This document shows positions 1-29,281 of a stretch of DNA of 29,281 nucleotides, in pieces. The notes beneath the pieces were generated by a model. The model did no database searches and had not been told where the DNA came from. It saw nothing but the letters and a program-made list of their open reading frames with translations. This DNA is from a virus. The DNA lies in IMG/VR virus record IMGVR_UViG_3300044625_001142, positions 1 to 29,281 of that record. One strand, 5' to 3'. Made by a program: the position numbers and the translations under genes. Numbering within the stretch: position 1 is the first letter of the stretch; each line of letters opens with the position of its first letter.

Positions 1-376
1 ACGTTCTCGCGTCGTGGCAACGCTTACATAACGGACGAAGGTTCGCGAGATCGTGCGTCCCGCCCGACTGTAAAGGTACTATGTGATCGACGACGGTCGC
101 CGGTGCGTCCTGACAGAACCGGCACAACGGTTCGAGTCGGAGAACCTGCGCACGGACGGCCCTCCACCGGGGGCCGTAATCCCGCCACGTTTCCCGTTCC
201 TTCCGGCGACGTTGGATCTCTGCCCGGTGCGTGTCGCAATACCCGTCGTGCGTCAGGACGCCGCACCCGTGAGAAGAACAGAACCGGGGGGGTCGTTTTG
301 GCACGGGGGGAGGTGTGCCGGAAACTGTGTTCGTGTGTTTCCCCGGGGTCACGGCAACGGGCCGGGCGTCCGTCAT
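1..376 (-). CDS. HNH endonuclease, partial (3' end beyond window)
   Basis: Reading leftward from an ATG at 376-374, an open frame of 125 codons runs off the left edge. The protein has a first cysteine cluster (FCSSHGCG and GYCDTH, about residues 32-49), then the HNH core: WRAVRAQVLRLEPLCRFC, followed by TVVDHIVPLQSGGTHDLANL and RPLCKRCHDART at the edge. The order CxxC - VDHI - N - CxxCH is that of phage HNH nucleases, which act with terminase in genome packaging in many cos-type phages. The start was chosen because GGAAGGG lies three bases upstream; a stop codon at 397-395 closes the frame above it. A GTG at 304 is a weaker alternative. The start codon lies in one arm of a large inverted repeat (374-418). 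Confidence in HNH is high; a packaging role is inferred. Confidence 0.88.
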   Translation of the reverse strand, partial: MTDARPVAVTPGKHTNTVSGTPPPVPKRPPRFCSSHGCGVLTHDGYCDTHRAEIQRRRKERETWRDYGPRWRAVRAQVLRLEPLCRFCQDAPATVVDHIVPLQSGGTHDLANLRPLCKRCHDART

Positions 377-418
377 TTTCCCTTCCGCGTCCCCTTAGGG
401 GGGGACGCGGGGAAAATG
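374..418. repeat. Imperfect inverted repeat at the HNH start
   Basis: CATTTTCC...CCGCGTCCCC (374-394) faces GGGGACGCGGGGAAAATG (401-418) around the spacer TTAGGG. The inner stem CCGCGTCCCC/GGGGACGCGG is perfect over 10 bp. It covers the HNH ribosome binding site and start codon on the minus strand, so as RNA it could hide the start, or it could be a protein binding site. It might equally be a weak terminator for the upstream small ORF. Function is inferred only. Confidence 0.6.
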
Positions 419-493
419 AACGTCCGCTACCGCTCCGGCCCTTATGCCGCTTGACCTTTTCGCAAGCGTGCGGGGGGCGCGCGGTTTCGTCAT
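395..493 (-). CDS. Possible 32-residue basic peptide
   Basis: A short frame from ATG 493-491 to TAA 397-395 would encode a basic N-terminal half (MTKPRAPRTLAKRSSG) and an unremarkable tail. The bases around its start, GGGAAAATGACG on the minus strand (499-488), are identical to those around the HNH start (382-371), which is the main reason to list it. It lies between the lipoprotein and HNH genes in the same direction and the same frame as HNH. No family is recognised. It could equally be non-coding, with the shared start sequence arising from a duplicated control site. Confidence 0.3.
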   Translation of the reverse strand: MTKPRAPRTLAKRSSGIRAGAVADVHFPRVPP

Positions 494-547
494 TTTCCCG
501 GCGTTTTGGGAAACTGACGGGGGGTGCGTGCTACCGGCGCGCGAGGG

Positions 548-898
548 TCATTCGCCGCACGCGCGGCGTTGTGCGCCCATCGCGTCGGCAAGGGCGGACA
601 CCGAGTCGTCGTATGTCGCGTATCCGGCCTTCTCGTTCTCTTCCGTTGCGACCCACACGCGGTAACTATCGAACGCGGCACGCACGGCGTCACTCGGCAT
701 TCCTGCCGGCCAACCGTTCACGTGCCGTCCGAATGCCTCCGTTGCGGTGTATCCGGCGTCGAAATCGTCGAGGATACGGGGGAGTATGGCGCACGCGGCG
801 ACGTCGGCCGGGGTGAGCGTTGGTGCGGTTTCGGTTGGCGGTGCGGCGCACCCAGCGAGGGTTGCGATCGTGAGGGCGAGGACGGTTCGTTTCAGCAT
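548..898 (-). CDS. Small predicted lipoprotein
   Basis: A 116-residue protein with a short charged N-terminus (MLKR), a hydrophobic stretch and a lipobox LAGC with Cys17, so it should be lipid-anchored outside the cytoplasmic membrane. The mature part is acidic and helical, with cysteines near residues 36 and 114, and matches no family I recognise. Phage lipoproteins expressed in lysogens often block superinfection; that role is an inference here. It follows the surface-modification genes with a 42-bp gap. There is no clear Shine-Dalgarno. Instead the start is preceded by a degenerate copy of the 15-bp repeat (914-928) and CCGGGT directly before ATG, the arrangement also found at the orphan gene starting at 6476. 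Confidence 0.78.
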   Translation of the reverse strand: MLKRTVLALTIATLAGCAAPPTETAPTLTPADVAACAILPRILDDFDAGYTATEAFGRHVNGWPAGMPSDAVRAAFDSYRVWVATEENEKAGYATYDDSVSALADAMGAQRRACGE

Positions 899-913
899 AC
901 CCGGCTACCGTGC

Positions 914-928
914 GCGCCGGGGGCACGC
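914..928 (-). repeat. 15-bp repeat, degenerate copy before the lipoprotein
   Basis: Minus strand GCGTGCCCCCGGCGC, 13 of 15 matches. It is part of the 33-base block (928-896) that resembles the block before the orphan gene at 6476. Another 13/15 copy lies at 466-480, beyond the lipoprotein stop. Confidence 0.55.
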
Positions 929-940
929 GGCGCCACGAGG

Positions 941-3269: not shown

Positions 3270-3284
3270 ACGGTAACGAGTGCC

Positions 3285-4874
3285 CTAAACGCCGAGCGAT
3301 AGTTGGCTGTGCTTTTTCTGCGCGTGGCGGACACGTCCCGCGATGATCGGGAGGTAGTCCGGGGTCAGTTCGCACCCAATCCACCCGAAACCCTCCGCGA
3401 TCGCGGCGACCGCCGTCGTTCCCGAACCGAGGAACGGATCCAATACGACGCCGCCGGGCGGGGTGACCAGACGCACCAGATACCGGATCAGCGCAACGGG
3501 CTTTACCGTCGGGTGATAGTTCGCGCGGGCGGCCGTTTTATGCCCGTCGAGTGACCCATCGACACGCCCGGCGTAGACGCCGGGCGTGTCCGCCTTTTTC
3601 AGATCGTCGAGACCGGCGTTCCGTTCCGCACGTGACGGTTTCGGACAGTAGAAGAAACGCGACGCGCCGCCGGTGTCTCCGTATTGAGGACCACACGGAA
3701 TACCGTTGCCTTCGTTCCAGATACCGCCGGTGCCTCTGTCGTCTCGGGGCTTGCCGGCTTTGCTTGTTCCGCTTTGCGCGTCGAGTTCGACACCGGCGGC
3801 CTCGTCGAGTATCACGTTCGCCGGCCAGCGTCCTGCCTCGTGTGGCACGATGGTGACTTCGGGCGTGTTGCGTTTGCCGCCGCCGGGAGCCATCGCCCGG
3901 CCGGCGGGGTATTTCGTGGAACCCATCTTGTCGGTCGTCCCGATCCGACAACCGTCTATGTTGAGCGCGCCGGTGCCGTGCGCTAACACGTTCGCGGCGA
4001 CCGTGCCGTCGAGCGGCTTACGCGCAACGACGATCGGTTCGTGTGCGGGTTTGAGGGCGGTCCCCCACCCGGCCCACTCTTTCGCCGCGTCAGTCGCCGG
4101 TTTGTCGCGTTTTTCTTTCGGTGTCAGATTAGCCTCGAATTCGTAGTTGGCTCTCCACTGCGCCGCGGCTGCCGCTGCCTTGTGTCGGCCCGTCACTTCG
4201 CGTTTGGCCCAGTTCGGCCCGGGTTGTCCCTTGCGGCCGTTGAGCGTCCAGAGAAGGTCGCGAACGCGCGCCGGGATTTCGTCAAGCGTCACGCCGAGCA
4301 CGTCGAGAAGGTCGGACACCTGTTCCAACGTCGGGACCGTTGGTTGGCTTTTCGAACTCGTCCAATGTCCCGCCATACCGGAGAACCCGAACGCGTCGTC
4401 TATGTCCCGGTTCGACAAACCCGCCGCGTCACGTGCCGCACGTATCCACGCGGTAACCTCGTACACCTCCGCGCGGTCGTCGCGCTGCTTGTCTATCGCC
4501 TTCGACACGTCCAACGACTTAGGGAACCCGGAACCGTAGATCCAGTGTATCGAGTCGCGGATCTCGAACCCGGCGTCCTCGATCGCGACGACCATACGGT
4601 GATACGTGCGCGTCCCGCCGAACGCGAGAAGGTGCCCGCCCGGTTTCAGCACCCGCAAACACTCCTGCCACAGTTCGACCGAATACGCAACCCCGGATGC
4701 GTCCCACGCCTTCCCCATAAATCCCAACTCATACGGCGGATCGGTCACGATACTATCGACCGAACCGTCGGGGAGATCCCGGAGCCGGTCCAGACACGAC
4801 CCGACCAGAACCCGCCCGGTAGCATAACGAACCGTTTTCCGCGCCGGTTTCCCGGCCTGTTTCCGTTTACCCAT
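3285..4874 (-). CDS. DNA methyltransferase (N6-adenine/N4-cytosine type)
   Basis: A 529-residue DNA methyltransferase with catalytic motif TDPPY (residues 44-48) before the SAM-binding motif DPFLGSGTT (479-487), the beta-class order. DPPY favours N6-adenine. An insertion of about 80 residues (about 128-210) looks like an Xre-type helix-turn-helix (AAGLSNRDIDDAFGFSGMAG, then PTLEQVSDLLDVLGV) and may contribute to target recognition. No restriction enzyme gene is adjacent, so it is probably an orphan methylase protecting phage DNA or regulating it. The start ATG 4874-4872 begins MGKRKQAG; the longer frame to 5150 overlaps the divergent operon and is rejected. A perfect 14-bp-arm inverted repeat (3561-3590) lies within the coding region. 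Confidence 0.93.
   Translation of the reverse strand: MGKRKQAGKPARKTVRYATGRVLVGSCLDRLRDLPDGSVDSIVTDPPYELGFMGKAWDASGVAYSVELWQECLRVLKPGGHLLAFGGTRTYHRMVVAIEDAGFEIRDSIHWIYGSGFPKSLDVSKAIDKQRDDRAEVYEVTAWIRAARDAAGLSNRDIDDAFGFSGMAGHWTSSKSQPTVPTLEQVSDLLDVLGVTLDEIPARVRDLLWTLNGRKGQPGPNWAKREVTGRHKAAAAAAQWRANYEFEANLTPKEKRDKPATDAAKEWAGWGTALKPAHEPIVVARKPLDGTVAANVLAHGTGALNIDGCRIGTTDKMGSTKYPAGRAMAPGGGKRNTPEVTIVPHEAGRWPANVILDEAAGVELDAQSGTSKAGKPRDDRGTGGIWNEGNGIPCGPQYGDTGGASRFFYCPKPSRAERNAGLDDLKKADTPGVYAGRVDGSLDGHKTAARANYHPTVKPVALIRYLVRLVTPPGGVVLDPFLGSGTTAVAAIAEGFGWIGCELTPDYLPIIAGRVRHAQKKHSQLSLGV
3561..3590. repeat. Perfect 14-bp inverted repeat inside the methylase gene
   Basis: GACACGCCCGGCGT (3561-3574) and its exact reverse complement (3577-3590) are separated by only AG. 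On the minus strand it encodes DTPGVYAGRV of the DNA methyltransferase. On the plus strand the hairpin is followed by CGCCTTTTTC, so it resembles a rho-independent terminator for antisense transcription. It could also be a protein-binding dyad or an mRNA structure slowing translation of the methylase. Confidence 0.85.
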
Positions 4875-4942
4875 ACGGGGACGCGTGCCCGCGTGCGGGG
4901 GGCCTATTGCCGAAATCGGAACCCCGGGCACGCTCCCCGGGT
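4875..4942. promoter_or_regulatory. Divergent intergenic region with dyads
   Basis: The 68 bp between the leftward DNA methyltransferase and the rightward lysis-type operon must hold both promoters. It contains a small dyad CCCGC-GT-GCGGG (4888-4899), a 13/15 copy of the 15-bp repeat in inverted orientation (4919-4933), and a second CCCCGGG just before the rightward ATG. No convincing -10/-35 pair could be assigned. Its position makes it a likely operator, perhaps for the small HTH protein encoded immediately to the right. Confidence 0.5.
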
Positions 4943-5188
4943 ATGGATACACATACACGCGTCGCGGCCGCGAAACACCGCGAGTTAGAGGCACGCAAGA
5001 TCGCGGACGCCGCCGCCGCCGACTATCGAAAGACGGTGCGTGACGCCGTCGCCGAATGGCGCGCCGGGGGCGCTTCCCTCCGGGTATGCGCCGAACGTAT
5101 GAACATAACCGAGGGCGCGCTCCGCGACCTGTTGCGGCCCGACGGGACACCGCGACGCGCGAAACGCCGTAAACCGGTGACGCCGTGA
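4943..5188 (+). CDS. Small HTH-like protein
   Basis: An 81-residue, strongly charged protein. Residues about 5-40 form a probable helix rich in Ala, Arg and Glu. Residues about 42-66 (GASLRVCAERMNITEGALRDLL) look like a helix-turn-helix. The C-terminus is basic (RRAKRRKP). It probably binds DNA. The ATG at 4943 follows CCCCGGGT directly with no purine-rich ribosome binding site; the frame stays open further left but only into the control region. It heads the rightward operon and overlaps the transglycosylase start. It could regulate the divergent region, but no family is recognised. Confidence 0.7.
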   Translation: MDTHTRVAAAKHRELEARKIADAAAADYRKTVRDAVAEWRAGGASLRVCAERMNITEGALRDLLRPDGTPRRAKRRKPVTP

Positions 5189-5592
5189 AACTCCTAACGG
5201 TCGCCGCAATCGTCGTCGCGTCATTCCTAACACCGGACCGCGCCGCACCCGAAATACCGGTCCCGGCGTCGGCGAAATGCCGTCAGTATTGGCGGACCGC
5301 ACTCGCGGCCGGTTGGCGCGAACACGAACTCCCGTTGTTAGACGCGGTCATTTGGCGCGAATCGCGGTGTAAACCGAACGTCGAGAACCCGAACGACCCG
5401 TGGGGAGGTTCCATCGGACTGTTACAGGTAAACCGGGGTTGGGTCCGATGGCTCCGCGAGCGCGGCGTTATCGGCCATTCCTCCGACCTTTACAACCCGC
5501 ACCACAACCTCGCCGCCGGCCGCGCGATCTATGAATACGCGTGCTCCCGGCACGGGCACTGTTGGATTGCTTGGGGGATACTCTCTGCGTAG
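5185..5592 (+). CDS. Secreted lytic transglycosylase-like muralytic enzyme
   Basis: A 135-residue protein with an N-terminal hydrophobic signal or anchor segment (residues 1-16) followed by a goose-lysozyme/SLT-like core. VIWRESRC carries the expected catalytic Glu59, GGSIGLLQVN (74-83) is the family's conserved turn, and DLYNPHHNLAAGRAIYE (101-117) is the usual downstream motif. Such enzymes cleave the glycan strands of peptidoglycan. It starts with GTG overlapping the TGA of the HTH gene. It lies apart from the M15 endolysin at 15.5-16 kb and on the other strand, so it is either a second lysis module or a wall-remodelling enzyme made at another stage. Cysteines at 32, 62, 120 and 126 could form disulfides outside the cell. 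Confidence 0.88.
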   Translation: MKLLTVAAIVVASFLTPDRAAPEIPVPASAKCRQYWRTALAAGWREHELPLLDAVIWRESRCKPNVENPNDPWGGSIGLLQVNRGWVRWLRERGVIGHSSDLYNPHHNLAAGRAIYEYACSRHGHCWIAWGILSA

Positions 5593-5619: not shown

Positions 5620-6165
5620 GTGGACGACACACAACGGGAACACCGGCGAATGCTGCGCGAACGTCGCCGCCACGAGGCGATACGCGGAATCGCCGGAACC
5701 GATCGTCCCCGTTGCGAATGCTGCCGCGAACACCGCATTTGGACACTCACGTTCGACCACCGGCACGGCGGCGGCAACGACGACCGTCGCGCCCACGCGA
5801 ACGCGCCGACAATCCAGATCATACGCGGAGAACGTAAACGTCTCGGCCATTGGCCCACGGACAAATACGCGATTCTCTGCGCAACGTGTAACCACGGGCG
5901 ACGCGTCTCCCCGGACGGCGTCTGCCCACACCAGAACGAAACCGGGGGAGGTGAAATGACAACAGAACTCCGCACACTCGCCGGGACCATCGTCCGCGTG
6001 TTCGTCGCGGCAACACTCGCCCAGTTCATCGCGAACGGCGGCGACGTGTTCGCCATCGACGGCAACGCCGCAAAGACGATCATCTCGTCCGGCATTGCGG
6101 CCGCCGCGATCGCGCTCTACAACTACGCGAACCCGCGCGACCACCGCTACGGGATCAAGCGCTAA
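5620..6165 (+). CDS. HNH/endonuclease VII-like segment fused in frame to a holin-like segment
   Basis: A continuous 181-codon frame from GTG 5620. Residues 1-112 contain paired cysteines (CECC, about 31-34), LTFDHRHGGGNDD, and CATCNHGRR, a zinc-bound beta-beta-alpha nuclease pattern like recombination endonuclease VII. Residues 113-181 are a separate two-helix membrane unit. There is no stop codon between them, and the second part has its own strong ribosome binding site (see the entry at 5956). Either the full fusion is made, or a short nuclease gene has lost its stop. It follows the transglycosylase by 27 bp and ends before a terminator. Assignment of the first half is by zinc and DH motifs only; no activity can be asserted. 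Confidence 0.65.
   Translation: MDDTQREHRRMLRERRRHEAIRGIAGTDRPRCECCREHRIWTLTFDHRHGGGNDDRRAHANAPTIQIIRGERKRLGHWPTDKYAILCATCNHGRRVSPDGVCPHQNETGGGEMTTELRTLAGTIVRVFVAATLAQFIANGGDVFAIDGNAAKTIISSGIAAAAIALYNYANPRDHRYGIKR
5956..6165 (+). CDS. Holin-like two-TM protein (internal start)
   Basis: Starting at ATG 5956, with GGAGGTG placed four bases upstream, this gives 69 residues: MTTELRTLAG, a first hydrophobic helix (TIVRVFVAATLAQFIA), a polar loop with DGNAAK, a second hydrophobic helix (TIISSGIAAAAIALYNY) and a basic tail (NPRDHRYGIKR). Size, two helices and the charged C-terminus fit small phage holins, which form holes in the cytoplasmic membrane at lysis. The neighbouring transglycosylase supports this. 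The same frame is open upstream, so the protein may be made both alone and as part of the 181-residue fusion. Confidence 0.78.
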   Translation: MTTELRTLAGTIVRVFVAATLAQFIANGGDVFAIDGNAAKTIISSGIAAAAIALYNYANPRDHRYGIKR

Positions 6166-6702: not shown

Positions 6703-9609
6703 TTAGAGGACTTCGACCGTCCCCCCGGCGCCACTTTCGCCCTTCTCGGCGAGGGTGTTACGCGGCCCGGACCACTTGCGGCCGTAGTCGGCCGGGAATA
6801 CCACGGTCGGGAGTTCCGGCGCACGACGGCACGTCGAACAGATCAGACCGCCCGGCACTTCCGGCACACGCACCGGGTGATCGAGTGTCCGCGTTCCACA
6901 GAACGGGCACGGACGAACCCACACGCGGCGGTCCGGGTTCCTGTTATGCCACTTCTCCGACCGTTCGAACACCGGCGCAAGACTGCTCGCCCCGGCGCCA
7001 CGACGACGCTTCCCACGGGTCAGTTCCTCACCGACGATACGCGGTGAAAGGGTCGTGATCTGCGGCAACACGTCACGGACGAACACGTCCCAACCGATAC
7101 CGTCATCGCCGGCCGCCTTCGCTGACGCGATCGCACGACGAACCGTCTCTTGCGTGTCAAGCACCCACGCGAACACCCAACCGGCATTCGACGAATACAC
7201 GTCGCGGACGTGCGACGAGAACGCCGGGTCGATACCCGCCGGGACGCGGAACGGCTTCCCGCTTTTCGCCTCTTCTACCATCGCCCAGATCACGCGGCGC
7301 GTTTCCTCCACCGGGCAATCGATCGCCGCGACACGGAGACCGATAGACGGCAAGATACCGAGACGGCGGAACTCGTCGTGGATCGCCCGGGCGACCTTTT
7401 CGCGGGTCGTGAAACCCAACGCGTCGCGGATCTCGTCGAGCGACTCGCCCAACGCGAACCGGCGTTCCAACACGCCCTCGCGACGGGCACGCACCCGGTC
7501 GGCGGTCGCCACGTTACGCACGCGGCACTCGATCGGACCGAACACCGCCGGACCTTCGTCCGTATCGACGGACAGATACAGGGATACCCCGACGTGCGCC
7601 CGGTCGTCGCTGACGACGAACCGTAGATCGAGGACACGATCGCGGAGCGCAAGGTTCAGGGTCGCCGGTGCCTTCCCGTCCGTTTGCGCGAGGAGCGCAA
7701 CGGCGGCGAACAGATCCGACACCTGCGCACGCGCCGCGTCGGTCAGTCCGGGGACGTCGATTTCGAGTTCGGCGTCGGTGATCTCCTTCCGGAGTTCTCG
7801 GACGCGTTGTTCCGCATTCGACAGATCGCGCGTCGCGCCTTTCAGCGTCTCACGGTTCGCGGCCGTTGGATCCTCCGCGAAAATCTCGTCGGCGATACCG
7901 TAAAGGTTCCGCGCACGGTTCGCGGCCTTTTCCGCCATTGCGAGTTCGTTTTCGAGTAGCGACGTTTCGCGTGCCCGGGGCGCGCCCTTGCGGGTCGTCT
8001 CCCGTTGCCACTGAACACCGTTCTCCGTCAACGCCGCGACGATGGACCCGGCGACCGCCCCGTGGAGTTCCACGTCGTCGATCGTCGCCATCTTCTCGCA
8101 TTCCTCCCAACGCCAACCGAGGGAACGCCCGGCCGCGTCACGGGCCACGGTCAGCGGACGTCGGACCAACTGATACGACCGGCCGGAGAACGCACCCAAC
8201 CGCCATTCGTGATCGTCGACGATCCACGCCGGGAACCCGGTCATCGGCTTACGCTCCACGTGCCGGGACGCCGCCCGCCCCCGGGCGGACTCTTCGCGTT
8301 GCCCGCCGAAACGCTTTTCGCGGCACGCGGCGACCAGTTCATCGGGAACCCACTTCCCGCCGGGGAGGGCGCCGTGTCCGAAATCGAGTTCCGTCGCAAG
8401 GAACTTCACGCGGCCGACGGCACGCCACTTCTCCGTTACGGCGGCGGCGACCTTCTCGTCGGCGATCGGGATACGCTGTTCGTAGTAGTAGATCCCGGTT
8501 TCCAACAGGGAACCGATCACAACGTCGCCGGCCTCGTCTACGCGCTGAATGCCGACGAGACGGTTCAGCATAGAACGGACGACGAGGTGCGGGTTACGCG
8601 CGTCGAGGACGGTCGCGTTCGGGTTGTTCAGACGTGCCCGGAGCACGGCCGAACCCCACCCGTATTTCGTCGCCAACTTCTCCGCGATCTCCCGCTCGGT
8701 CAGATCGGACGCACCCCACGTCAGGACGTCGCGGACGAGATCCTGTTTCGTGACGTCCGGAACGACGCGGACGCTCTGTTGCCCGCGCGGACCGTAAACC
8801 GTCTCGAACCGGTAGCACCCGAGCGCCGGTAGCGCGTCCTCGGACTTTGCCCACTGCCCGTCCATAAGGACGTCGTGCGCGCCGCGTTGGAGACGGTCGA
8901 CGGTGTTTGTGTAGTCCCATACCGCGCCGTCGAGGTAGTTAGAGAACGATTGCGACCCGGCGTCGGTCCACATTGCCATCGGCGGACACCCATACGCGAC
9001 GATCGTCGTCCGCGCCTTTTCGCACGCGTCCGCGAGTTTCATACCGTGCCGCTTCGAACGTGCGACGCGCGTAATCGGGCCGGTCACGATCTCGGATACC
9101 GAATGCCGGAGAACCAGTTCGGCGAGACGGTCGGTGAAATCGTTAGACTCGTTCTCGTTCGACTTTGCCGCCGAGAACAGGGATACGAGGAACAGGGTGT
9201 CCCCGATCTCCAACACCCACCCGATCGTTTTCCGGCCGGAGAGACCGCCGGTCAGCGTCCGGGCGTTGTAGCGTGCGCGGAGTTCCTCCGCCGCACGCCC
9301 CTTTTCGGCAAGGGCGACACCGTGCGTCAGGAACTCGGCGACGTCGGCGTCGTCCTCATACGGACGGCACGTGTATTCGATCAGTTTTTCCAGTTCGCCG
9401 AACGCGTTCTCGTCGGACTCTCGAAACACAAACAACCGGTCATAGTGCCGGGCCGTTCCGACGGTTGCGGCGAGACGATCCGCACGCCGGGCGGCTTCCC
9501 GGTGCGCGGTCGTGATACGCGAGGGGGCGACGGCGGTCCCGGTCGCGGCGGCGGGTTGTTCGTGCTGACCGTATGCGTTCCGGGTGCGCTTCGTCTTTTT
9601 CGTTGCCAT
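6703..9609 (-). CDS. Very large serine integrase
   Basis: A 968-residue site-specific recombinase. The catalytic N-domain shows R63-x-S65 (FVFRESDEN) and ITRVARS (R181, R184), matching the R-x-S and DRLGR motifs of serine recombinases. Between them is an insertion of about 60 residues beyond the usual spacing. A recombinase domain follows (about 200-330; VLMDGQWAKSEDALPALGCYRF and EREIAEKLATKYGWGS). The usual mid-protein zinc ribbon cysteines are not seen. A coiled coil (about 545-640), an HTH-like stretch (about 710-745) and a C-terminal zinc ribbon (CPFCG, CSTC; about 902-925) make up the rest. Typical family members are about 450-650 residues. The start ATG has GGAG upstream. It integrates the genome, presumably without host factors. 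An exact 15-bp repeat (7969-7983) lies just before the coiled coil. Confidence 0.85.
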   Translation of the reverse strand: MATKKTKRTRNAYGQHEQPAAATGTAVAPSRITTAHREAARRADRLAATVGTARHYDRLFVFRESDENAFGELEKLIEYTCRPYEDDADVAEFLTHGVALAEKGRAAEELRARYNARTLTGGLSGRKTIGWVLEIGDTLFLVSLFSAAKSNENESNDFTDRLAELVLRHSVSEIVTGPITRVARSKRHGMKLADACEKARTTIVAYGCPPMAMWTDAGSQSFSNYLDGAVWDYTNTVDRLQRGAHDVLMDGQWAKSEDALPALGCYRFETVYGPRGQQSVRVVPDVTKQDLVRDVLTWGASDLTEREIAEKLATKYGWGSAVLRARLNNPNATVLDARNPHLVVRSMLNRLVGIQRVDEAGDVVIGSLLETGIYYYEQRIPIADEKVAAAVTEKWRAVGRVKFLATELDFGHGALPGGKWVPDELVAACREKRFGGQREESARGRAASRHVERKPMTGFPAWIVDDHEWRLGAFSGRSYQLVRRPLTVARDAAGRSLGWRWEECEKMATIDDVELHGAVAGSIVAALTENGVQWQRETTRKGAPRARETSLLENELAMAEKAANRARNLYGIADEIFAEDPTAANRETLKGATRDLSNAEQRVRELRKEITDAELEIDVPGLTDAARAQVSDLFAAVALLAQTDGKAPATLNLALRDRVLDLRFVVSDDRAHVGVSLYLSVDTDEGPAVFGPIECRVRNVATADRVRARREGVLERRFALGESLDEIRDALGFTTREKVARAIHDEFRRLGILPSIGLRVAAIDCPVEETRRVIWAMVEEAKSGKPFRVPAGIDPAFSSHVRDVYSSNAGWVFAWVLDTQETVRRAIASAKAAGDDGIGWDVFVRDVLPQITTLSPRIVGEELTRGKRRRGAGASSLAPVFERSEKWHNRNPDRRVWVRPCPFCGTRTLDHPVRVPEVPGGLICSTCRRAPELPTVVFPADYGRKWSGPRNTLAEKGESGAGGTVEVL
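7969..7983 (+). repeat. 15-bp repeat, copy 4 (exact)
   Basis: GCGTGCCCGGGGCGC inside the integrase gene, in a different reading frame from copies 1, 2 and 5 (it encodes APRAR rather than APGT). It lies at about residue 542-546, immediately before the coiled coil. It shares 18 bp (CGCGTGCCCGGGGCGCGC) with copy 3. Confidence 0.85.
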
Positions 9610-14693: not shown

Positions 14694-15257
14694 CTATCCC
14701 CGGTTGCGGCCACCATTTAGGAACGCGCGCCCCCGGCGCGCAAGACGCCACGCCGTAAAACGCCCCACGTGGAACGTCTCTTGTATCTCCCGCACCCCGC
14801 CCCCGTCGAGAACGAGAACGTGGATTTTGTCCAACAACCGCGTTTCCCAATGCGACCAGACGTCGAGAAACGACGACAGGATCTCGACCTCGTCCTCGTC
14901 CATACGTAAAAACTTACCGGCGACCGTCGGGCGCACCCCGTCGTCGATCAGACCCAACCACGCGCGGAGAATAGACGACGACACCTCGCCTTCGTATTCG
15001 CCGGTTGCCTCCACCACTTCGAACACGTCGGCGAGTGAGACCGACCCGCCAAGATCCACCACGTCGGCGAGAACCTCGATAGAAAACAACTCCGGCGGCA
15101 ACAGGGCGCCCACGGCGCGAATCGCATAGCGCGCACCGTCGAGAAACCCCTCCGGTTCTAAATCGCGGTGCTCGTCAAGATCGGACAGAACGTTAGCGAA
15201 ACCCTCCGGCGACATCGGTAGCACGCCGACGTTCCGTTGGAGCGTTTCGAGGTTCAC
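14694..15257 (-). CDS. Unknown protein with C-terminal HTH
   Basis: A 187-residue acidic protein whose last about 35 residues (VREIQETFHVGRFTAWRLARRGRAF) look like a helix-turn-helix with a basic recognition helix. The first 150 residues are helical and acidic (PPELFSIEVLADVVDLGG, EDEVEILSSFLDVW) and are not recognised. The GTG start overlaps the WhiB stop (GTGA), so the pair is co-translated and may work together in transcription control. Alternatives such as a small terminase-like or replication-initiation protein cannot be excluded. Confidence 0.6.
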   Translation of the reverse strand: MNLETLQRNVGVLPMSPEGFANVLSDLDEHRDLEPEGFLDGARYAIRAVGALLPPELFSIEVLADVVDLGGSVSLADVFEVVEATGEYEGEVSSSILRAWLGLIDDGVRPTVAGKFLRMDEDEVEILSSFLDVWSHWETRLLDKIHVLVLDGGGVREIQETFHVGRFTAWRLARRGRAFLNGGRNRG

Positions 15258-15475
15258 GAAACGTCCCGGACGTGTTCGTCGCGTTCATACGGGCCGAGAC
15301 CGCCACGGATACCGAGACGGATTTTCTCCGTCGCGAGACAGTCCGTCAGACACTCATCGCGCACCGGACACGACCGGCAAATGTCCACCGCCCGCCGGCC
15401 TTCCGGGGACGTGCGTTTGGCGAAAAACGGGGCGATACCAACCGTTCGACACGCCGCCCGGGTTCGCCAACTCAT
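15254..15475 (-). CDS. WhiB-family iron-sulfur transcription regulator
   Basis: A 73-residue WhiB protein: MSWRTRAACR with the first cysteine at residue 9, then DICRSCPVRDECL supplying Cys33, Cys36 and Cys42 in the CxxCxxxxxC spacing that holds a [4Fe-4S] cluster, followed by the GIRGGL turn and a basic/charged tail. WhiB proteins bind region 4 of the main sigma factor and redirect transcription, and they are confined to actinobacteria and their phages. This is the best evidence for the host group. The start ATG 15475 lies 16 bp below the endolysin stop; longer frames only re-read the endolysin gene. With the sigma factor gene in the same block it suggests two layers of takeover of host RNA polymerase. 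Confidence 0.93.
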   Translation of the reverse strand: MSWRTRAACRTVGIAPFFAKRTSPEGRRAVDICRSCPVRDECLTDCLATEKIRLGIRGGLGPYERDEHVRDVS

Positions 15476-15491
15476 ACCGGGACGCGTGGCG

Positions 15492-16040
15492 TCACACGGG
15501 GAATGCCGCGACCTCGTCGGGCACGTTATCGCCCGCGACGTAACGCCAATGCCACGGTTCGGACTGTAACTCGGCGGAGAACCCGAACCGGTGCGCGTTG
15601 CGCACCAACCACCGCACGAACGCGGGGGACACCGACTCGGGCTGCGGATCCCCGTCGCGTTCCTCCGCAAAATCGACCGCCAATCCGAGACCGTGATTTG
15701 ACGTCCCGGGCCGCGCTGCGGCGGCCGTTCCCGGTAGTTGCCACCACCGTTCGCCGTTCCACGTCTTCGACGGCCGGCCGTCGAGCGGCGTTCGCGTGTA
15801 GCGCGACCGGAACAGGGTTTCCTGTTGCGCGAGGGAACGATACGTGCCGGTAGCACGCACCACGAACCCGGCCTCCGTTGCGGCCGCGACCAGTGCCCGA
15901 CACGCACGCGCCGCCGTCGGGACCATCACAAACGACCCGATCCCGCACGAAACCAACAGACGCGGCGGGAGTTCGCCGTTACGTCGCCCGCGTAGTTCGC
16001 GCGGCAACCGCACCGGCATAACGGGGAGCGTTATGCGCAC
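15492..16040 (-). CDS. Endolysin, M15-family D,D-carboxypeptidase/L-Ala-D-Glu type
   Basis: A 182-residue peptidase of the VanY/M15 family. TGTYRSLAQQE (about 64-74) is the substrate-binding motif, SNHGLGLAVDF gives zinc ligands H116 and D123, and EPWHWRY gives E161 and H164. It cleaves peptide bonds in peptidoglycan cross-bridges or stems. The start is GTG 16040, four bases after GGAGG; the longer frame to 16079 re-reads the upstream gene. It follows the holin-like gene with a 10-bp overlap. There is no signal peptide, so release should depend on a holin. No separate wall-binding domain is present; the first 45 residues are basic and unassigned. Confidence 0.92.
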   Translation of the reverse strand: MRITLPVMPVRLPRELRGRRNGELPPRLLVSCGIGSFVMVPTAARACRALVAAATEAGFVVRATGTYRSLAQQETLFRSRYTRTPLDGRPSKTWNGERWWQLPGTAAAARPGTSNHGLGLAVDFAEERDGDPQPESVSPAFVRWLVRNAHRFGFSAELQSEPWHWRYVAGDNVPDEVAAFPV

Positions 16041-16318: not shown

Positions 16319-18732
16319 GACAGACTGATCCCGATTACAAGATCGCCGGCCGTAGTGTCCGTGCGTTCGCCGAGTATGTTGCCCGTGAAATCGCGACGGA
16401 CCTTTACCGTGCCCGTCGTATCGGCCAGTGTCGTTACCGTCACACCCCCGCCGTCGGTAGTGAAATACGCGGGAACTGCGCCCGAACCACTGTCATACGT
16501 TCCCGAGATCAGGACCGCGTCCTCGTTCCCGCCGGCGGCGATCTCGGACGCGACAGACCCGGCCGGTAGCACGTCGTCGAACGTCTCCAATACGCCCGTA
16601 TCGAGGTTGAGTCGTTGCCAACTGTCACGATCCCCCGGGTTTACTCCTTGCGTGTCCACGGTCATAACGTGCGTGCTGTTCATACTGATTCCGCCCCAAC
16701 GCGAGATCGCGGAGGTAGAGTAGAGAAGACGACCGGAAACCGTCCAACGGCGACCCGCCGTCGCGCCCGCTTCCAATACGTAAACGTGTTGATTACCGGA
16801 GGACGTGAAAGGCGCCCACGCGATACCCCAATCGCCCGCCGCAAACCAACTTCCCGACGCGCTATTCGGCACACTCGGCCCGACATACGAAACCGACGCG
16901 TTCGTCTCGTCGGTGAACGTCGGTAGGAAATCCGAGACGGTCCCCGTGTCGTCGATCGTCACGATACGGGCGTTAGTAGAACCGGCGACGTGAGTACACG
17001 AACAGTACATAACACCTTGCGAAACGCCGAGCGTGCGTATGCCGCCGTAGTTGTAGGTCGTCGCGACGTTGTTATGAACAACGAGAAGGGTGTTCGTGCT
17101 AACGCCTGATGTCGAGTCCGAGTTGAGTTGGAACGCGAACGTCCCGGTAGATAGACGCGACAACGCTAACCCGTTCGTCCACGACGTCGACGGTAGCGAA
17201 ATCGTGTAGACGCTCGGCGCGACAAAATCGATGACACGTCGTCCGTTATCGTATGTGACGAACCCCTCGCCGGCTTGGAACAGATCCCACGTCACGTTCG
17301 GGTCGTAAGGGAGACCGGCGACCGATGACGGCGGCACAAACCCGAACTGTGTTCCGACACCGCCGCCGCCCGACTGAACGAGACCCGTTGCGATGTTACG
17401 CCCGTCCGCTTCCGTTATGAACACCTCGTCTCCGGTGTAGAAATCCCAAATACTCCCGTTCTCAAAATCGGTGGAAACCCCGGAACAGTCGGCGTTGCCT
17501 TCCCGGGTGCTACTGTCATAACTGACGACGGTACAAACCTCCGCACCGCCGCCGATCGCACCGCCGCCCGGGTCGATGTCGATAGGCTCATACCCGATAC
17601 CGGATTCCCCGGCGGCGTTGTTGCGTTCCGCGCGCAACAGTAGACGCGCCAACCGGCGATCCAGATCGGCGCGCACGTCGCCGAGTTCCGGAACGAACGT
17701 CAGACGTCCCGACTGATCTTGCGTAACCGTAATCGCACGAATACGGAACTGCGCACGCGTCCCGTCAGTGTCCGCCAAAAACACGCGGTCCCCGACATAG
17801 AAATCGGAATACGGGGTCGGGCCGTTCTCGTCAAGACTGACCGTCCGCGACTCGGCCGCCCCGGACAGTTTATCCAACAGACCTTCCGTCGCAAGGTCGA
17901 TCACCGTCGCGTCGGTCGTGTTCGACAGGGCGAGGAACGTCTCCCGACGACCGAACGTCGAGATAGAACCGGCGTTCGTTTCCGTCGTGAACGTCGAACC
18001 GTCCGCCCCGGACGCGATCAGCACCGCGTTAGAGATCGGGCCGGCAGAAACCGCCGACAACTCCGACACGCTCAACCCGGCACGAAAAACGAGCGGGTTC
18101 GCACCCGTCGTCCGATCCGTCCCGCGTTCGGGAACCATCTCGATAACGAGTTCGGGTGTCACCCAAACGTCCACCGCGAGTTCCTCCAACGTCCCGACGA
18201 TCTCCGTTAGCGTGCTACCGGTGCGGACGTCGATCGTCAGCGTGTCCGGGTATGCGTCCCCGTCGGAATCCACAGTCGGGGAGAAACCCATCGTAAACCC
18301 GGTAAGCGCGCCTCGGGCCTGCGCCTCGTCTATCAAATCATCGAGAATGTATCCGGGCGTTCGCGTCGTGTAGGTTCGCACAGTTTCCCCGGCGATCTCC
18401 GGATAAACGACGGCGTCGGCAAGACGCGCGCGGAGACCGCGACCGGAAATCTCCGCAACCCGGGCCGTTCCACCAGTCGCCGCGCCCGTCTTCTCAATCG
18501 TGACCGTTTCTACCGTCCCGGCGAACACCCACGCGTCCGACGTATCACCCAACGCGAACCGGACAACCGACCCGACGCCTAACGTTCCGAGATCTTCCAA
18601 CGGGAGAGAAAACGAGAATGAACCGGCCTCGTCTATGTCGTCAAGCCAACGCACACCGAACGCCGTTCCCAATCGGGAAACCGGCGTCGTGCCCGACGCG
18701 TTGTATTCGACTACGGAGAGGATCACGCCCAC
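16315..18732 (-). CDS. Tail hub/receptor-binding minor tail protein
   Basis: An 805-residue protein. Residues about 1-370 resemble the siphovirus Gp37-like/gp27-type tail hub (VRWLDDIDEAGSFSFSLPLEDL, AEISGRGLRARLADAVVYPE, then GSTLTEIVGTLEELAVDVWVTP). A glycine-rich linker follows (IGYEPIDIDPGGGAIGGG), then a small beta domain (AEVCTVVSYDSSTREGNADC), and from about 470 to the end a beta-rich Ser/Thr/Gly region with repeated strands and WGGI/WGIAW motifs that suggests a propeller-like receptor-binding head. No separate fibre gene follows, so this one protein probably closes the tail tip and recognises the host. Fold assignment of the second half is inference. Confidence 0.82.
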   Translation of the reverse strand: MGVILSVVEYNASGTTPVSRLGTAFGVRWLDDIDEAGSFSFSLPLEDLGTLGVGSVVRFALGDTSDAWVFAGTVETVTIEKTGAATGGTARVAEISGRGLRARLADAVVYPEIAGETVRTYTTRTPGYILDDLIDEAQARGALTGFTMGFSPTVDSDGDAYPDTLTIDVRTGSTLTEIVGTLEELAVDVWVTPELVIEMVPERGTDRTTGANPLVFRAGLSVSELSAVSAGPISNAVLIASGADGSTFTTETNAGSISTFGRRETFLALSNTTDATVIDLATEGLLDKLSGAAESRTVSLDENGPTPYSDFYVGDRVFLADTDGTRAQFRIRAITVTQDQSGRLTFVPELGDVRADLDRRLARLLLRAERNNAAGESGIGYEPIDIDPGGGAIGGGAEVCTVVSYDSSTREGNADCSGVSTDFENGSIWDFYTGDEVFITEADGRNIATGLVQSGGGGVGTQFGFVPPSSVAGLPYDPNVTWDLFQAGEGFVTYDNGRRVIDFVAPSVYTISLPSTSWTNGLALSRLSTGTFAFQLNSDSTSGVSTNTLLVVHNNVATTYNYGGIRTLGVSQGVMYCSCTHVAGSTNARIVTIDDTGTVSDFLPTFTDETNASVSYVGPSVPNSASGSWFAAGDWGIAWAPFTSSGNQHVYVLEAGATAGRRWTVSGRLLYSTSAISRWGGISMNSTHVMTVDTQGVNPGDRDSWQRLNLDTGVLETFDDVLPAGSVASEIAAGGNEDAVLISGTYDSGSGAVPAYFTTDGGGVTVTTLADTTGTVKVRRDFTGNILGERTDTTAGDLVIGISLS

Positions 18733-24258: not shown

Positions 24259-24260
24259 GG

Positions 24261-24973: not shown

Positions 24974-25008
24974 AGTTCTACGAGTGCCGATACGCGCCCA
25001 GAATGCCG

Positions 25009-25038
25009 AAACCCCGGGACCATTCGGCCCCGGGGTTT
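25009..25038. terminator. Terminator after the major capsid gene
   Basis: AAACCCCGGG (25009-25018) pairs perfectly with CCCGGGGTTT (25029-25038) around a 10-base loop. It lies 22 bp beyond the capsid stop and leaves TTT after the stem on the minus strand. The likely effect is partial termination, giving extra capsid message relative to downstream tail genes. Confidence 0.85.
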
Positions 25039-25059
25039 ACGGTTAGTTCGTCGCGGTTA

Positions 25060-26253
25060 TCAGGAACCGGAGGTGAGATCCGCGATCACGAACTTCGCGG
25101 GGTTCAGGACACCGAACGCGGCGCGGGCGTTACCCGACACGGCGACGAGACCACGGACCGCGTAGTCCGAGTGCTGCGGGTAAACCGCAACGGTGACCGG
25201 CTGACGCTCCCAGAGGACCGCCGCACGGAAATCACCGACGATCGCGGTTCCCTCCGGCACTGCGGCGTCCACGACGCGGGGCACGCCCCAGATCGTCGGA
25301 GTTGCCGCACCAGCGGGACCACCGAACAGGAACACGCCCGAGTCGTTCAGGAGGTCGATCTGCTCGTCGTCTGCCGGGTTCAGGAGAACGGCCGACGGGC
25401 GACCGTTGCCGGTGTGACGCACCTTGCGGATCGCCTTACGGATCGTGGTGATCAGGTCAGTGTCGAATGCCTGCGACTGTGTGCCGCTGACCTCCAACAG
25501 ACCTTCCATATTCTCACCGAGTCCGTCGCCGTTGATCACCTGATCGGCGACCTCGTCCAAGATCGACGAACGGATAAATGCGTCGACGAGTGATTGGAGT
25601 TGCGCGGCGTCGTTGAGTGCCCGCACAGACGCCGGAATGAACGTGCGCACGTCGCGGACGTTCGCGGTCATCTTCACGAACTTCATCGTGGACTCGTCAC
25701 CTGCGGTGCCTTCGGCCTTCGGTGCGGCGGCGTTCACGCTGTCGCCTGCGCCGTAGTTCAGCACCCGGGCGAACTCGACGGCGTCAGACGTCGTCGAGGC
25801 AAGGGTGAGAAGGGACAGGACGTTCAGTTCGCGGGCGTAAGCGGCCTCAACAGGGGCGTAACGCTGCGCGTCGATGAGCGAACCGGCGTAGTCGTCGGAC
25901 GCACCGGTGATCGTGGCTTTCAGACCACCGACCGGAACCGACGGTGAGTTCGGGACGGACTTTGCGTCCACGACACCGTTAGCGGTTGCGCCGTTGAGCC
26001 AGTGACGGAACGAACCATCGGCGAGCAAACGCTCCCCGGCGGTGCGGGCCTTCTTGCCCTCTTCCTGCGGCTTGACGGAACCGAGTTCGGCGCCGAGAGA
26101 CTCGACGGCCGCGCGGAGTTCCGCGTCCTGCTTGACGGCCTTCGCGCCGGCGATCGCGGACTCGACGGTCTCGCGCTCCTCGGCGGTAAGGGCGCGACCT
26201 TCCGCTGCTGCGGCGGCCGCGATCTGCTTTGCGTTCTCAATGAGGTTGTTCAC
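25060..26253 (-). CDS. Major capsid protein, HK97 fold
   Basis: A 397-residue HK97-type capsid protein. Residues 1-75 are a helical, charged delta/scaffold domain (AEGRALTAEERETVESAIAG, LGAELGSVKPQEEGKKAR) probably removed by the protease. The shell domain has VEAAYARELNVLSLL, FVKMTANVRDVRTFIPASV, ILDEVADQVINGDG and WGVPRVVDAAVPEGTAIVGDF, the usual HK97 landmarks. The GTG start is preceded by GGAG. It forms the icosahedral head. Confidence 0.95.
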   Translation of the reverse strand: MNNLIENAKQIAAAAAAEGRALTAEERETVESAIAGAKAVKQDAELRAAVESLGAELGSVKPQEEGKKARTAGERLLADGSFRHWLNGATANGVVDAKSVPNSPSVPVGGLKATITGASDDYAGSLIDAQRYAPVEAAYARELNVLSLLTLASTTSDAVEFARVLNYGAGDSVNAAAPKAEGTAGDESTMKFVKMTANVRDVRTFIPASVRALNDAAQLQSLVDAFIRSSILDEVADQVINGDGLGENMEGLLEVSGTQSQAFDTDLITTIRKAIRKVRHTGNGRPSAVLLNPADDEQIDLLNDSGVFLFGGPAGAATPTIWGVPRVVDAAVPEGTAIVGDFRAAVLWERQPVTVAVYPQHSDYAVRGLVAVSGNARAAFGVLNPAKFVIADLTSGS

Positions 26254-26286
26254 CGGGTTTCTCCTTGTGTTGTTGGTCGGTGCTTG

Positions 26287-27834
26287 TTATGACCCGATCT
26301 CGGCGAGATCGAGAAGGTAACGCGCAACGTCACCAGACAGTCCCAGTTCCTCGGCCTTGACCGTCACCGGTTCCTCGGCCTTGACAGGTTCCCCTGTTGT
26401 GTTGCCTTCCATCGAACCGAGCACTTCGCCGAGAAGGTTCTTCGCGTTGCGAATGCGCTCCTCGTTTTTCGCGGATAGTGTCCGTCCGACCTTCTGACGG
26501 GTGCCGGGGGCGGCGGCCTTTTCACGCGCGCCCGTATCGGCGGCCTCGCCTTCCTCTTCGTATTTCGTCAGTTCAGAGAACCGGAAACCCCGGAACGTGT
26601 TCGTTGCGACGGCTTCCCCGTCGGTGTCCTCATAGACGCGCACCAATGCCAACGGGTCGTCGGCCGACGCGGTCAGCGACAACGGGTCGCCCTCGATACC
26701 GAACTCGCCTTCCGTCATAACGTATTCGACCCGGCCCTCGCCGCCGTCGAACGTGACGAAATCGCCCAATGTCAGTTCGTCCGCCGCCGCCTTCTCCGCG
26801 AGAAGGGCGGACCGCACTCCGATTAGGTGGGTTTCGCTATTTGCCCCTTTTAGTGTGGGTCCTGTTTCCAAAATCGACAAGCGCCGGAGTTCGGTCACGC
26901 CGTCCTTACCGGGGGCGGCGTCGATCACGTCATACGCGAACGAGAACTCCGACACCGCACCCTCGGCGAGGAGTTGGCGGACGTGCTGCGCCGTCGGCGT
27001 GTCGAACAGGGACGCACGAACGACGAGACCCTCGTCGGTTTCCTTCGCGTCGCGCACCACACCGAGAAACGACTCCGGGCGGCCCCAGTCGTGCGACCAG
27101 ATGAACGGGATAGAACGACCGGCGTCGGCAATCTCTTTCAGACTGTCAGCGAACGCGCCGGGCATAACCCGATCGCCGACGAGATCGGTGTTACCGAACA
27201 CGGATACGAGCGCGGTAACCTCGCCGTGCGGCGCGTCATCGGACGCGGCCTTGACTTCGAAACGTGCGGGAGAGGACTTGCGTAGAACCTTCACCGCCGG
27301 ACGAGTGCCGCGTTTCGCCGCGTTGTCCGAAACGGACGACTCGTCCGCGTCGATCTGCGCGACCAGACGTTCCGCCCACGTGCGGCCCGGGTCACCGCCC
27401 CACAACGCCCACGCGATCCGCCCCGCCGACGGGTAACCGTCCTCGTCGGGACTCCACCCCTGACCCTGTTTGTCGACTTCGTGCCTTGCGAAATACGACA
27501 CCATACGCCGCAACGTATCCACCGACAGGTTCTCCCCGTTCGCGATGTCCCGGGCACGCGCGACGCCGACCGGCGTTCCGCCGCGTCCGTATTCACGACG
27601 CCACTCCAACCCGCGTTCCGCTTCCTCGCGCGCCCCTTGCGGCGGGCGTCGGTCATCGGGAACGGCTTTTGCCGAACGTTCGCCGCCCGGCTCGATGTCC
27701 TCGGCGAGTGATACGGCGACCATTTGGTCGATCGCTTCCCGGCGGGTGCGGTGACACCCGATCACTTCGCCGTCGTCTTTCTCCACCGCCCACCCGGAAC
27801 AGTCCGGGTTGTCGTTCGTCACGAAATACGGCAC
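26287..27834 (-). CDS. HK97-type capsid maturation protease with N-terminal extension
   Basis: About 515 residues. The serine protease core is central (EVTALVSVFGNTDLVGDRVMPGAF; IPFIWSHDW with the catalytic His; VSEFSFAYDV with the catalytic Ser). It is preceded by about 190 residues holding two additional units: a Cys motif (NPDCSGWAVEKDDGEVIGCHRTRREA) and a domain with WSPDEDGYPSAGRIAWALWGGD. The C-terminal about 190 residues are acidic and include AAAPGTRQK. It cleaves capsid subunits and itself during head maturation. Start uncertain: GTG 27834 follows the portal stop by one base; TTG 27852 would overlap portal by 17 bp. The extension is larger than in typical proteases of about 200 residues and may act as scaffold. 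Confidence 0.87.
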   Translation of the reverse strand: MPYFVTNDNPDCSGWAVEKDDGEVIGCHRTRREAIDQMVAVSLAEDIEPGGERSAKAVPDDRRPPQGAREEAERGLEWRREYGRGGTPVGVARARDIANGENLSVDTLRRMVSYFARHEVDKQGQGWSPDEDGYPSAGRIAWALWGGDPGRTWAERLVAQIDADESSVSDNAAKRGTRPAVKVLRKSSPARFEVKAASDDAPHGEVTALVSVFGNTDLVGDRVMPGAFADSLKEIADAGRSIPFIWSHDWGRPESFLGVVRDAKETDEGLVVRASLFDTPTAQHVRQLLAEGAVSEFSFAYDVIDAAPGKDGVTELRRLSILETGPTLKGANSETHLIGVRSALLAEKAAADELTLGDFVTFDGGEGRVEYVMTEGEFGIEGDPLSLTASADDPLALVRVYEDTDGEAVATNTFRGFRFSELTKYEEEGEAADTGAREKAAAPGTRQKVGRTLSAKNEERIRNAKNLLGEVLGSMEGNTTGEPVKAEEPVTVKAEELGLSGDVARYLLDLAEIGS

Positions 27835-27835
27835 G

Positions 27836-29281
27836 TCAGACGCCCCAGTCAACGAGACACTGACAGTTCGCTTTTTCGTCCGCTCCTAACGACGGGTCGC
27901 CGGGGAACATTGCGCCATTGGAGAACGTGTCCGAACGCGGCACCGTCTCCCCGTCGAGGGACGCGTGCGACGAACGCGGATTGCCGGACGTGACCACCCA
28001 CGTTTTCTCCGCAAGGTCAGCGGCGGCGGCCGCCTCGTTCCGCGCGAACTCGCCAACGGACGTCGCAACCGACAACGCATACGTTAGCGCCGTGCCGACC
28101 GAGATTTCCCCGAACAGGGACTCGATCGCGTCGGCCAACCCTTCGTCGTCGGTTTCGTCCAATACGGCCGACAGACGCGAAATCGTCGAGTCGTTTATCG
28201 CCCCGGCGGTCCCTTCCGCGAACGCGTCGAGATACTCGGCGGCGTTATCCGGGTCCCAATCGGCGACCGTTGCCGCCATACGACGCGCCAACCGGCGGAC
28301 GGCCGGTTTCAGATCGTCGGCGAGTTCACGATCGAACCGGGTACGGTCGAACACGTCCCCGGCGGTCGCCTTTACGCGCGACTTCCTCTTTGCGCCGATT
28401 TTCGACACGACCGACCGACTCTGACGGTTCAGCGCGTCGACGATCGTCGTCTCGAACTCCTTAGCGGCGTCGCGACGTTCGCGCAAGATCCGCGACCGGC
28501 GGAGCGCCTTCACGTTCTCCGGATCGCCGGCCGATTTTGTCGCCGTCGGTTCGTCCGATGACAACCCGCCCAACACGCGCGACTCGGGGACCGAGTCCTG
28601 CGGCGACGCCTGCCCGCCGACGAGGACGTTTAGCGGGATCACCAGTTCGTCGCCCCCATCGATCGGTGACAGGTTCAGACGTGCGCGCGCCTCGTTGCGC
28701 GACAGATACGGCGCACCGACCGACGCTTGTAGGATCGCCGCCTGTTCGGTGAACGACCCGGCCAGTTTCGCCGCGAGCGAGAACTCCAAATACGTTTCCG
28801 CCGGGACATCGAACTCGGGGAGTAGTTGCGTTTCCAGTTCCTCCTGAATACGGGTCAACCACGGTGCGAGACAGTCGGCGTACAGTTGCCGGTGTTGTTC
28901 GGTCAACGACGCGTAGTTCGTCGCACCGAGACCGAGCAAACCGACCGGGATACCGTAAGCGGTTGCGACGATCTCGCGCGACAGTTGGAACGACTCTAAA
29001 TACTGCGCGTCACGTGCCGAATACGACACCGGACGATACGTCATTCCCTCTTCCAACACGACCGTTCGACCAGACGCCGCCGCGCCGGTGTAACCGGCCT
29101 CGAACTCCGCGCGGAACCGGGCACGTGCCTCGTTCGACCACGTCGGCGCGGTCATCGGTCGTTCGATAACGCCGCCCATACGCGCCGAGTTCTCCCAAAA
29201 CTTCTCGCGGTAACGGCCGGCGGCGTGTTGTTCGGCGAGGATCTGACGGAGCGTCTCGATCGGGGACAGACCGCGACGCGG
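27836..29281 (-). CDS. Portal protein with MuF-like C-terminus, partial (5' end beyond window)
   Basis: The frame is open to the right edge (481 codons visible). At the edge it reads LSPIETLRQILAEQHAAG and KFWENSAR, then GGVIERP, a classic phage portal stretch; YESFQLSREIVATAYGIPVGLLG-like motifs (ESFQLSREIVATAYGIP) and the clip/crown region follow. The last about 60 residues (SGNPRSSHASLDGETVPRSD, then ADEKANCQCLVDW) match the C-terminus of Mu gpF-type minor head proteins, so portal and MuF-like parts are fused. The dodecameric portal is the DNA gate; MuF parts are usually internal head components. An internal ATG at 29179 is not the true start. Confidence 0.93.
   Translation of the reverse strand, partial: PRRGLSPIETLRQILAEQHAAGRYREKFWENSARMGGVIERPMTAPTWSNEARARFRAEFEAGYTGAAASGRTVVLEEGMTYRPVSYSARDAQYLESFQLSREIVATAYGIPVGLLGLGATNYASLTEQHRQLYADCLAPWLTRIQEELETQLLPEFDVPAETYLEFSLAAKLAGSFTEQAAILQASVGAPYLSRNEARARLNLSPIDGGDELVIPLNVLVGGQASPQDSVPESRVLGGLSSDEPTATKSAGDPENVKALRRSRILRERRDAAKEFETTIVDALNRQSRSVVSKIGAKRKSRVKATAGDVFDRTRFDRELADDLKPAVRRLARRMAATVADWDPDNAAEYLDAFAEGTAGAINDSTISRLSAVLDETDDEGLADAIESLFGEISVGTALTYALSVATSVGEFARNEAAAAADLAEKTWVVTSGNPRSSHASLDGETVPRSDTFSNGAMFPGDPSLGADEKANCQCLVDWGV

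Follow-up and report, generated by a model that had tools for sequence, protein, structure and literature searches.

The IMG/VR virus record IMGVR_UViG_3300044625_001142 raises the question of why a viral genome should lack a whole series of short words, some of them from both strands and others in only one of the two orientations in which they can lie along the DNA. The stretch analysed, called the window here, is the entire record:

1 to 29,281, the whole record, linear, 29,281 bases

Exact counts over the window gave zero copies of the palindromic tetramers AGCT, TGCA, CATG, CTAG, and TTAA, one copy each of AATT, ATAT, and TATA, and 12 copies of GTAC. The palindromes GATC (270), TCGA (225), and ACGT (236) are abundant, and the longer palindromes CTCGAG and GGGCCC are absent. 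The original prediction, made from the sequence letters, had stated that the first four tetramers are entirely missing where about 100 of each would be expected from base composition, and that GATC, TCGA, and ACGT are frequent; the counts agree with all of this, the independent-base expectation being 96.5 for each of the four. The extent of the phenomenon was under-called, as TTAA is also missing, AATT, ATAT, and TATA are reduced to single copies, and the losses from one strand had been overlooked. GTAC, described then as present, does occur but is strongly depleted, with an expectation of 90 under a second-order Markov model. ATG codons are scarce as well (68 in the 28 called genes of the minus strand), as expected under CATG avoidance, and the amino acid composition may be affected.

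The same Markov model expects 10.3 copies of AGCT, 43.7 of TGCA, 23.8 of CATG, and 20.3 of CTAG, the low value for AGCT being due to the depletion of the AGC and GCT trinucleotides as well. Where coding is this dense, the appropriate null is the permutation of synonymous codons within the genome, which keeps both proteins and codon usage. In 300 such permutations of the 28 leftward genes, which cover 89.5% of the window, the expected numbers were 52.5 for AGCT (lowest permutation, 39), 34.2 for CATG (21), 32.9 for TGCA (19), 25.6 for CTAG (15), 21.7 for TTAA (11), and 97.2 for GTAC (81), and none of the permutations approached zero for these palindromes. Because some 52, 33, 34, 26, and 22 copies of AGCT, TGCA, CATG, CTAG, and TTAA are expected in this way, codon bias does not explain their absence. 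The zeros extend to the uncalled sequence (1,950 four-mer starts), and the avoidance of palindromic sites exceeds composition, dinucleotide, and codon effects. Several words that are not palindromes have also been lost from both strands, namely GGATG/CATCC (1 copy), GCATC/GATGC (1), CCTGG/CCAGG (1), TTGAA/TTCAA (0), and CTCAG/CTGAG, which is likewise missing.

A second group of words is kept in one orientation only. On the plus strand CCAG occurs 69 times and its reverse complement CTGG never; the corresponding numbers are 43 and 0 for ACTT and AAGT, 33 and 0 for GCTTC and GAAGC, 81 and 1 for CTGC and GCAG (the single GCAG at 18044), and 34 and 1 for AGACC and GGTCT (the single GGTCT at 26167), so that the minus strand, the sense strand of the capsid gene, has one AGACC and 34 GGTCT. 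Less complete but of the same kind are GCCT and AGGC (107 vs 6), CCCA and TGGG (130 vs 9), CCACC and GGTGG (57 vs 3), CTTCG and CGAAG (39 vs 2), and CTCTT and AAGAG (17 vs 1). Of the words missing from the capsid-sense strand, the codon permutation expects 67 CTGC, 44 CCAG, 48 ACTT, 89 GCCT, and 50 CCCA; asymmetric words are therefore held in one orientation along the DNA beyond codon expectation, with a few inverted copies left for some of them. In 27 of 39 words the orientation that protein content makes the rarer is the one lost (P 0.024), a weak tendency among words that overlap. Removal from one strand suggests a class of restriction enzyme different from that acting on the palindromes.

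Relatives of the window were sought with the capsid protein encoded by the following gene:

25,060 to 26,253, minus strand, major capsid protein (PF05065, 4.5e-29)

These searches gave 16 IMG/VR loci with capsid identities of 59 to 78%, except for L001, which is a 4.1-kb overlap with the window at 99.9% identity. The G+C content across relatives whose capsids are 59–78% identical runs from 36 to 66%, an unusual spread. The missing palindromes differ among these related phages: G001 is without GTAC, CTAG, AATT, TTAA, and ATAT and has three AGCT where 96 are expected; G002 is without ACGT, CCGG, GATC, and GCGC and yet has AGCT; G003 is without AATT; and G007 is without CTAG, AATT, and ATAT. That relatives have lost different palindromes fits host-imposed restriction and not a property of the lineage. 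Twelve genes of the window were aligned with those of G001 and compared wherever the two encode the same amino acids. At these sites G001 has 121 copies of words that are forbidden in the window, of which the window replaces 120 synonymously and keeps one, an AGACC, while for three allowed words the same comparison showed 55 of 77 replaced and 22 kept (Fisher P 1.8e-9 vs the forbidden words). The orientation of a word can also differ between relatives: the numbers of AGACC and GGTCT on the capsid-sense strand are 60 and 1 in G003, 41 and 0 in G002, and 24 and 0 in G008, the reverse of the window, and G001 is balanced (58 and 69). Such a flip of AGACC would be expected if either orientation suffices.

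How unusual the window is was judged by two tests. In the first, based on conditional resampling, each further word is judged conditionally on those already missing, and a summed log-likelihood ratio (LLR) is reported. The window has 51 depleted words with a summed LLR of 1153, of which 12 are palindromic, 14 symmetric, 23 in one orientation, and 2 mixed. Among the relatives G001 has 43 words (832), G003 has 51 (895), and G006 has 10 (139); the four control phages have 19 (Butters, 300), 32 (Galaxy, 435), 24 (T7, 421), and 15 (Reyja, 238). As a positive control, the method recovers the known GATC, CCWGG, and CAGCAG features of T7, and the raw T7 counts of CAGCAG in its two orientations, 0 and 36, reproduce the published EcoP15I number. 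The second, strict codon test retains words with an expectation of at least 20 and an observed number of at most 5% of it. It took in 10 of the 17 family records, the short ones (G009, G010, G011, G013, G014, L004, and L001) being left out. Seven strict one-orientation words were found in the window, five in G001, four in G003, one in G004, and none in G002, G005, G006, G007, G008, and G012; eight of nine control phages had none and lambda had one weak word. Raw one-way counts made without the codon null are misleading in AT-rich genomes: Helicobacter phage KHP30 has 28 raw one-way pairs of 419 and G002 has 62 of 433, and neither has a strict word. The same KHP30 (L061) shows a strong loss of a single palindrome, with one ACGT where codon permutation expects 34. 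CATCAG, the site of the type III enzyme PstII, lies one way in both T7 (0 and 34; L052) and T3 (0 and 30; L054).

The reading that we favor, with a probability of roughly 70%, is that the window comes from an actinobacterial siphophage and that the phage's ancestors were under selection to evade many restriction specificities at once, by losing palindromes and by keeping other sites in one orientation, so evading enzymes of the type III or type ISP kind. What is observed are the losses of palindromes and asymmetric words from both strands, the losses from one strand, changes that are mostly synonymous, and different sets of words in the relatives. Long selection against the sites of several restriction systems had been put forward in the original prediction, and that idea survives the codon null and is supported by the loss of other palindromes in relatives and by the synonymous changes at homologous sites. 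The palindromes and the other words lost from both strands would evade ordinary type II-like enzymes, which cut at any single unmodified site. The strand-locked words, on the other hand, would evade putative enzymes that need two asymmetric sites facing each other, either type III or type ISP, as the phage would retain sites but have none, or nearly none, in the opposing orientation. Against such enzymes the loss of one orientation would suffice, whereas a palindrome, or a site that can be fully methylated, would have to go entirely. The long and varied list of words suggests a host population with varied systems rather than one strain.

Type III enzymes are described as recognizing asymmetric sites, methylating one strand, and cutting only between opposed sites, and T7 as evading EcoP15I because all 36 of its CAGCAG sites point one way and form no head-to-head pair (PMC3874151). 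By analogy, the lock in the window would work like the T7 case, with sites kept in a single orientation against a putative enzyme. The window differs from T7, which has one 6-bp motif, in having several motifs of 4–5 bp with 33 to 107 kept sites each, and its relatives lock other motifs or the opposite orientation. Recognition sites of type ISP enzymes are longer than the words of the window. For the type ISP enzymes LlaGI and LlaBIII, collision of enzymes coming from head-to-head sites has been described (PMC4666363), and the escape proposed for the window also turns on head-to-head sites. In the survey of Rusinov et al. (2018; PMC6286503), complete or almost complete loss of type II sites is reported for about one-tenth of viral genomes, and systematic strand-asymmetrical avoidance of type I and type III sites is reported as not observed. 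The window resembles the double-stranded DNA phages of that survey in the near-complete loss of palindromic type II sites and differs from them in losing many words jointly, several asymmetric ones from one strand. The paper on the BASEL collection notes the type III need for head-to-head sites and calls this limitation “largely theoretical” on the ground that 5-nt sites are frequent in all genomes (PMC8594841); with 34 copies vs 1, the window is a counter-example for AGACC. The open-licence literature yielded no report of a phage in which several motifs are strand-locked, subscription papers being outside the scope of the search.

Some of the locked words are published type III sites. AGACC is the EcoP1I site, and GCAG (HP0593, a published 4-bp type III site) and CCACC (NgoAXP) are also locked in the window. 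Of the 14 eligible locked words of the window, five, three of them nested, match published type III sites, compared with 25 of 407 background pairs; the values are 6 of 17 vs 62 of 433 in G002, 4 of 18 vs 38 of 488 in G003, and 1 of 17 vs 35 of 452 in G001. Published sites thus appear over-represented among the locked words of the window, G002, and G003, not of G001, which lends the restriction reading weak support.

A number of observations weigh against escape from type III or type ISP-like enzymes. The lock is strong in some members of the family and not in all: three of the ten records submitted to the strict test have at least four strict words, one has a single word, and six have none. 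Flips between relatives are seen in only 3 of the 131 locked words, and AGACC alone flips strongly. Inverted copies persist on the plus strand (one GCAG, one GGTCT, three GGTGG, six AGGC, and nine TGGG), and even one inverted site might in principle be enough for a head-to-head pair. The pair ACTT/AAGT has an A on both strands and the pair CGGGC/GCCCG, locked in G003, has neither A nor T, so that both are at odds with simple methylation of adenine on one strand. An A is found on one strand only in 21 of 29 locked words and in 4 of 11 symmetric words, a difference short of significance (P 0.065), and the control words show the same in 9 of 9. The portal and capsid searches led to no host and no restriction system, and the enzymes are for this reason spoken of as putative. 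Lastly, dozens of motifs exceed what one strain is known to carry: Neisseria gonorrhoeae, whose load is described as among the highest, has 13 to 15 systems (PMC6789123), and since the list is longer than this, one has to suppose that the host population is varied or that something else contributes.

The words might instead be held in one orientation by another DNA system acting on one strand, such as type IIL or IIG enzymes, bacteriophage exclusion (BREX), or the phosphorothioation-based Ssp system, all of which likewise work with asymmetric sites that carry their modification on a single strand. No sense trinucleotide of the window is more depleted than CCA, with 76 copies against 244 expected (425 vs 540 for its reverse complement TGG), and CCA is the Ssp motif (PMC9646914). 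According to the same source, nicking by SspE is not limited to CCA sites; the loss of CCA should for that reason bring no benefit, and Ssp phosphorothioation at CCA was set aside on this literature. Rusinov et al. report that type IIG sites are not avoided (PMC6286503), and type III and type ISP enzymes are documented as strictly requiring opposed sites (PMC3874151, PMC4666363). We consider it unlikely that one of these other systems accounts for the lock.

Still less probable is a bias inherent in the phage itself, whether of mutation, of the replication strand, or of repair, an explanation that would account for the dependence on strand and for the strong dinucleotide signature (AG, CT, and TG at 0.59, 0.53, and 0.62 of expectation). 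Under such a bias it is hard to see specific 4-letter words at exactly zero while their neighbors are common. Moreover, G001, whose DnaB-like helicase and capsid are 76–78% identical to those of the window, tolerates CATG, TGCA, CCAG, and CTGC, and G002 has AGCT while lacking GATC and ACGT. A cause built into phage replication would not be expected to shift so quickly between relatives. A modification or repair effect, which the original prediction had offered as an alternative, likewise finds no support, since the words missing differ from one close relative to another.

Almost every gene of the window is on the minus strand, hence losses from the sense strand could not at the outset be distinguished from the removal of words from transcripts by endoribonuclease toxins (MazF-like) or by effects of translation. 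Two genes, transcribed rightward, separate the DNA strand from the messenger RNA (mRNA):

5,185 to 5,592, plus strand, lysozyme/SLT-like gene, running against the direction of almost all the other genes (Pfam SLT_3, 3.3e-9; SLT, 3.2e-8)
5,620 to 6,165, plus strand, HNH-like gene (phrog_2255, E 1e-4)

Homologs of the HNH-like gene are on the opposite strand in G001, G002, and G003 too (58%, 41%, and 50% identity by tblastn). The mRNAs of the two rightward genes of the window include five CTGC and three CCAG, words nearly absent from all leftward mRNAs, and no CTGG (6.5 expected) or GCAG (2.9 expected). When the opposite-strand genes of four phages were pooled, their mRNAs contained 30 copies of words missing from the main sense strand (42 expected under a G+C-weighted codon null) and 5 copies of the reverse complements of these words (44 expected), with a Poisson P of about 1e-13 that is no more than indicative, as the words overlap. 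An earlier run with the phages' own codon usage had given 32 vs 33.7 expected and, for the complements, 6 vs 37. The uncalled, untranslated sequence follows the DNA strand as well, with six CTGC and no GCAG, and five GCCT and no AGGC. The lock tracks the DNA strand irrespective of gene direction, and because the opposite-strand genes and the uncalled sequence both do so, transcript-level causes are excluded for the main words. MazF-like avoidance, in which the words should be shunned in mRNA whichever strand the gene is on, was rejected, and a cause of this kind is highly improbable for the one-strand losses as a whole. Codon usage and composition alone, in spite of a G+C content of 64% and a strong codon bias, are hardly credible and were rejected by the independent-base and Markov counts, by the codon permutation, which expects 26 to 52 copies of each of the four tetramers first listed, and by the absence of the pattern from control actinophages. 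The counts and the permutation also dispose of the base-composition, trinucleotide, and codon-bias account that the original prediction had left to be checked.

Strand-biased escape from type III enzymes is a textbook idea that rests chiefly on T7 and EcoP15I. Several short motifs locked at once whatever the direction of the genes, with other locks in the relatives, would mean that the strategy can be extended to many motifs and changes quickly, and the sequence of a phage alone may reveal the restriction specificities of an uncultured host. A broader proposal, which we hold tentatively and would not yet back at even odds, is that this actinophage lineage uses the one-way arrangement of many 4–5-bp asymmetric sites as a general and rapidly re-set counter-defence against translocating enzymes, the word list being a record of the repertoire of the host population. 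If so, such lists would also contain 4-bp type III or type ISP specificities not yet known, and the enzymes of uncultured hosts could be worked out from them.

The window is probably most of a siphophage genome, and the record is probably incomplete. It encodes siphophage-type proteins, namely a portal protein, an S78-type protease, an HK97-type capsid protein, a tail tape measure protein, a DnaB-like helicase, and a sigma factor, in addition to glycosyltransferases and the products of two further genes:

3,285 to 5,150, minus strand, beta-class N6/N4 DNA methyltransferase with a CcrM-like C-terminal stretch (phrog_67, 1.9e-76; PF01555, 1.1e-33)
15,254 to 15,907, minus strand, WhiB-like protein (PF02467, 1.6e-13), with homologs in five relatives

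No terminase gene was identified among the genes of the window; as an HNH gene opens the record and the portal gene, with the record's end inside or near it, closes it, the terminase gene may be in the missing part. WhiB is not known outside Actinobacteria and their phages. The WhiB-like proteins of the window and the five relatives point to a host among the Actinobacteria, as do the related capsids encoded by phages and prophages of that group. A search of genome contigs with the portal protein gave no match. Alignment of the capsid found distant prophages only (13 loci at 27–39% identity), from which no host was assigned to the window, and among 396 actinobacterial genomes there was no close prophage, distant ones being present in 13.

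Among the minor observations, G002, with its 36% G+C content, also has a WhiB-like stretch. The methyltransferase may protect sites that remain in the window, as the original prediction proposed. Over some 180 bases its gene is about 80% identical in DNA sequence to methyltransferase genes of mycobacteriophages, one of them annotated as “HindIII-like”. A reading frame of 968 amino acids on the minus strand of the replication region (6,703 to 9,609) gave no match in PHROG, Pfam, NCBIfam, or PDB. The words most over-represented relative to the codon null are GAAC (280 vs 165 expected) and GTTC (274 vs 161), which together are the Dnd phosphorothioation motif; both are also high in G001, GTTC is high in most relatives, and their excess could be a compensation for the missing words.

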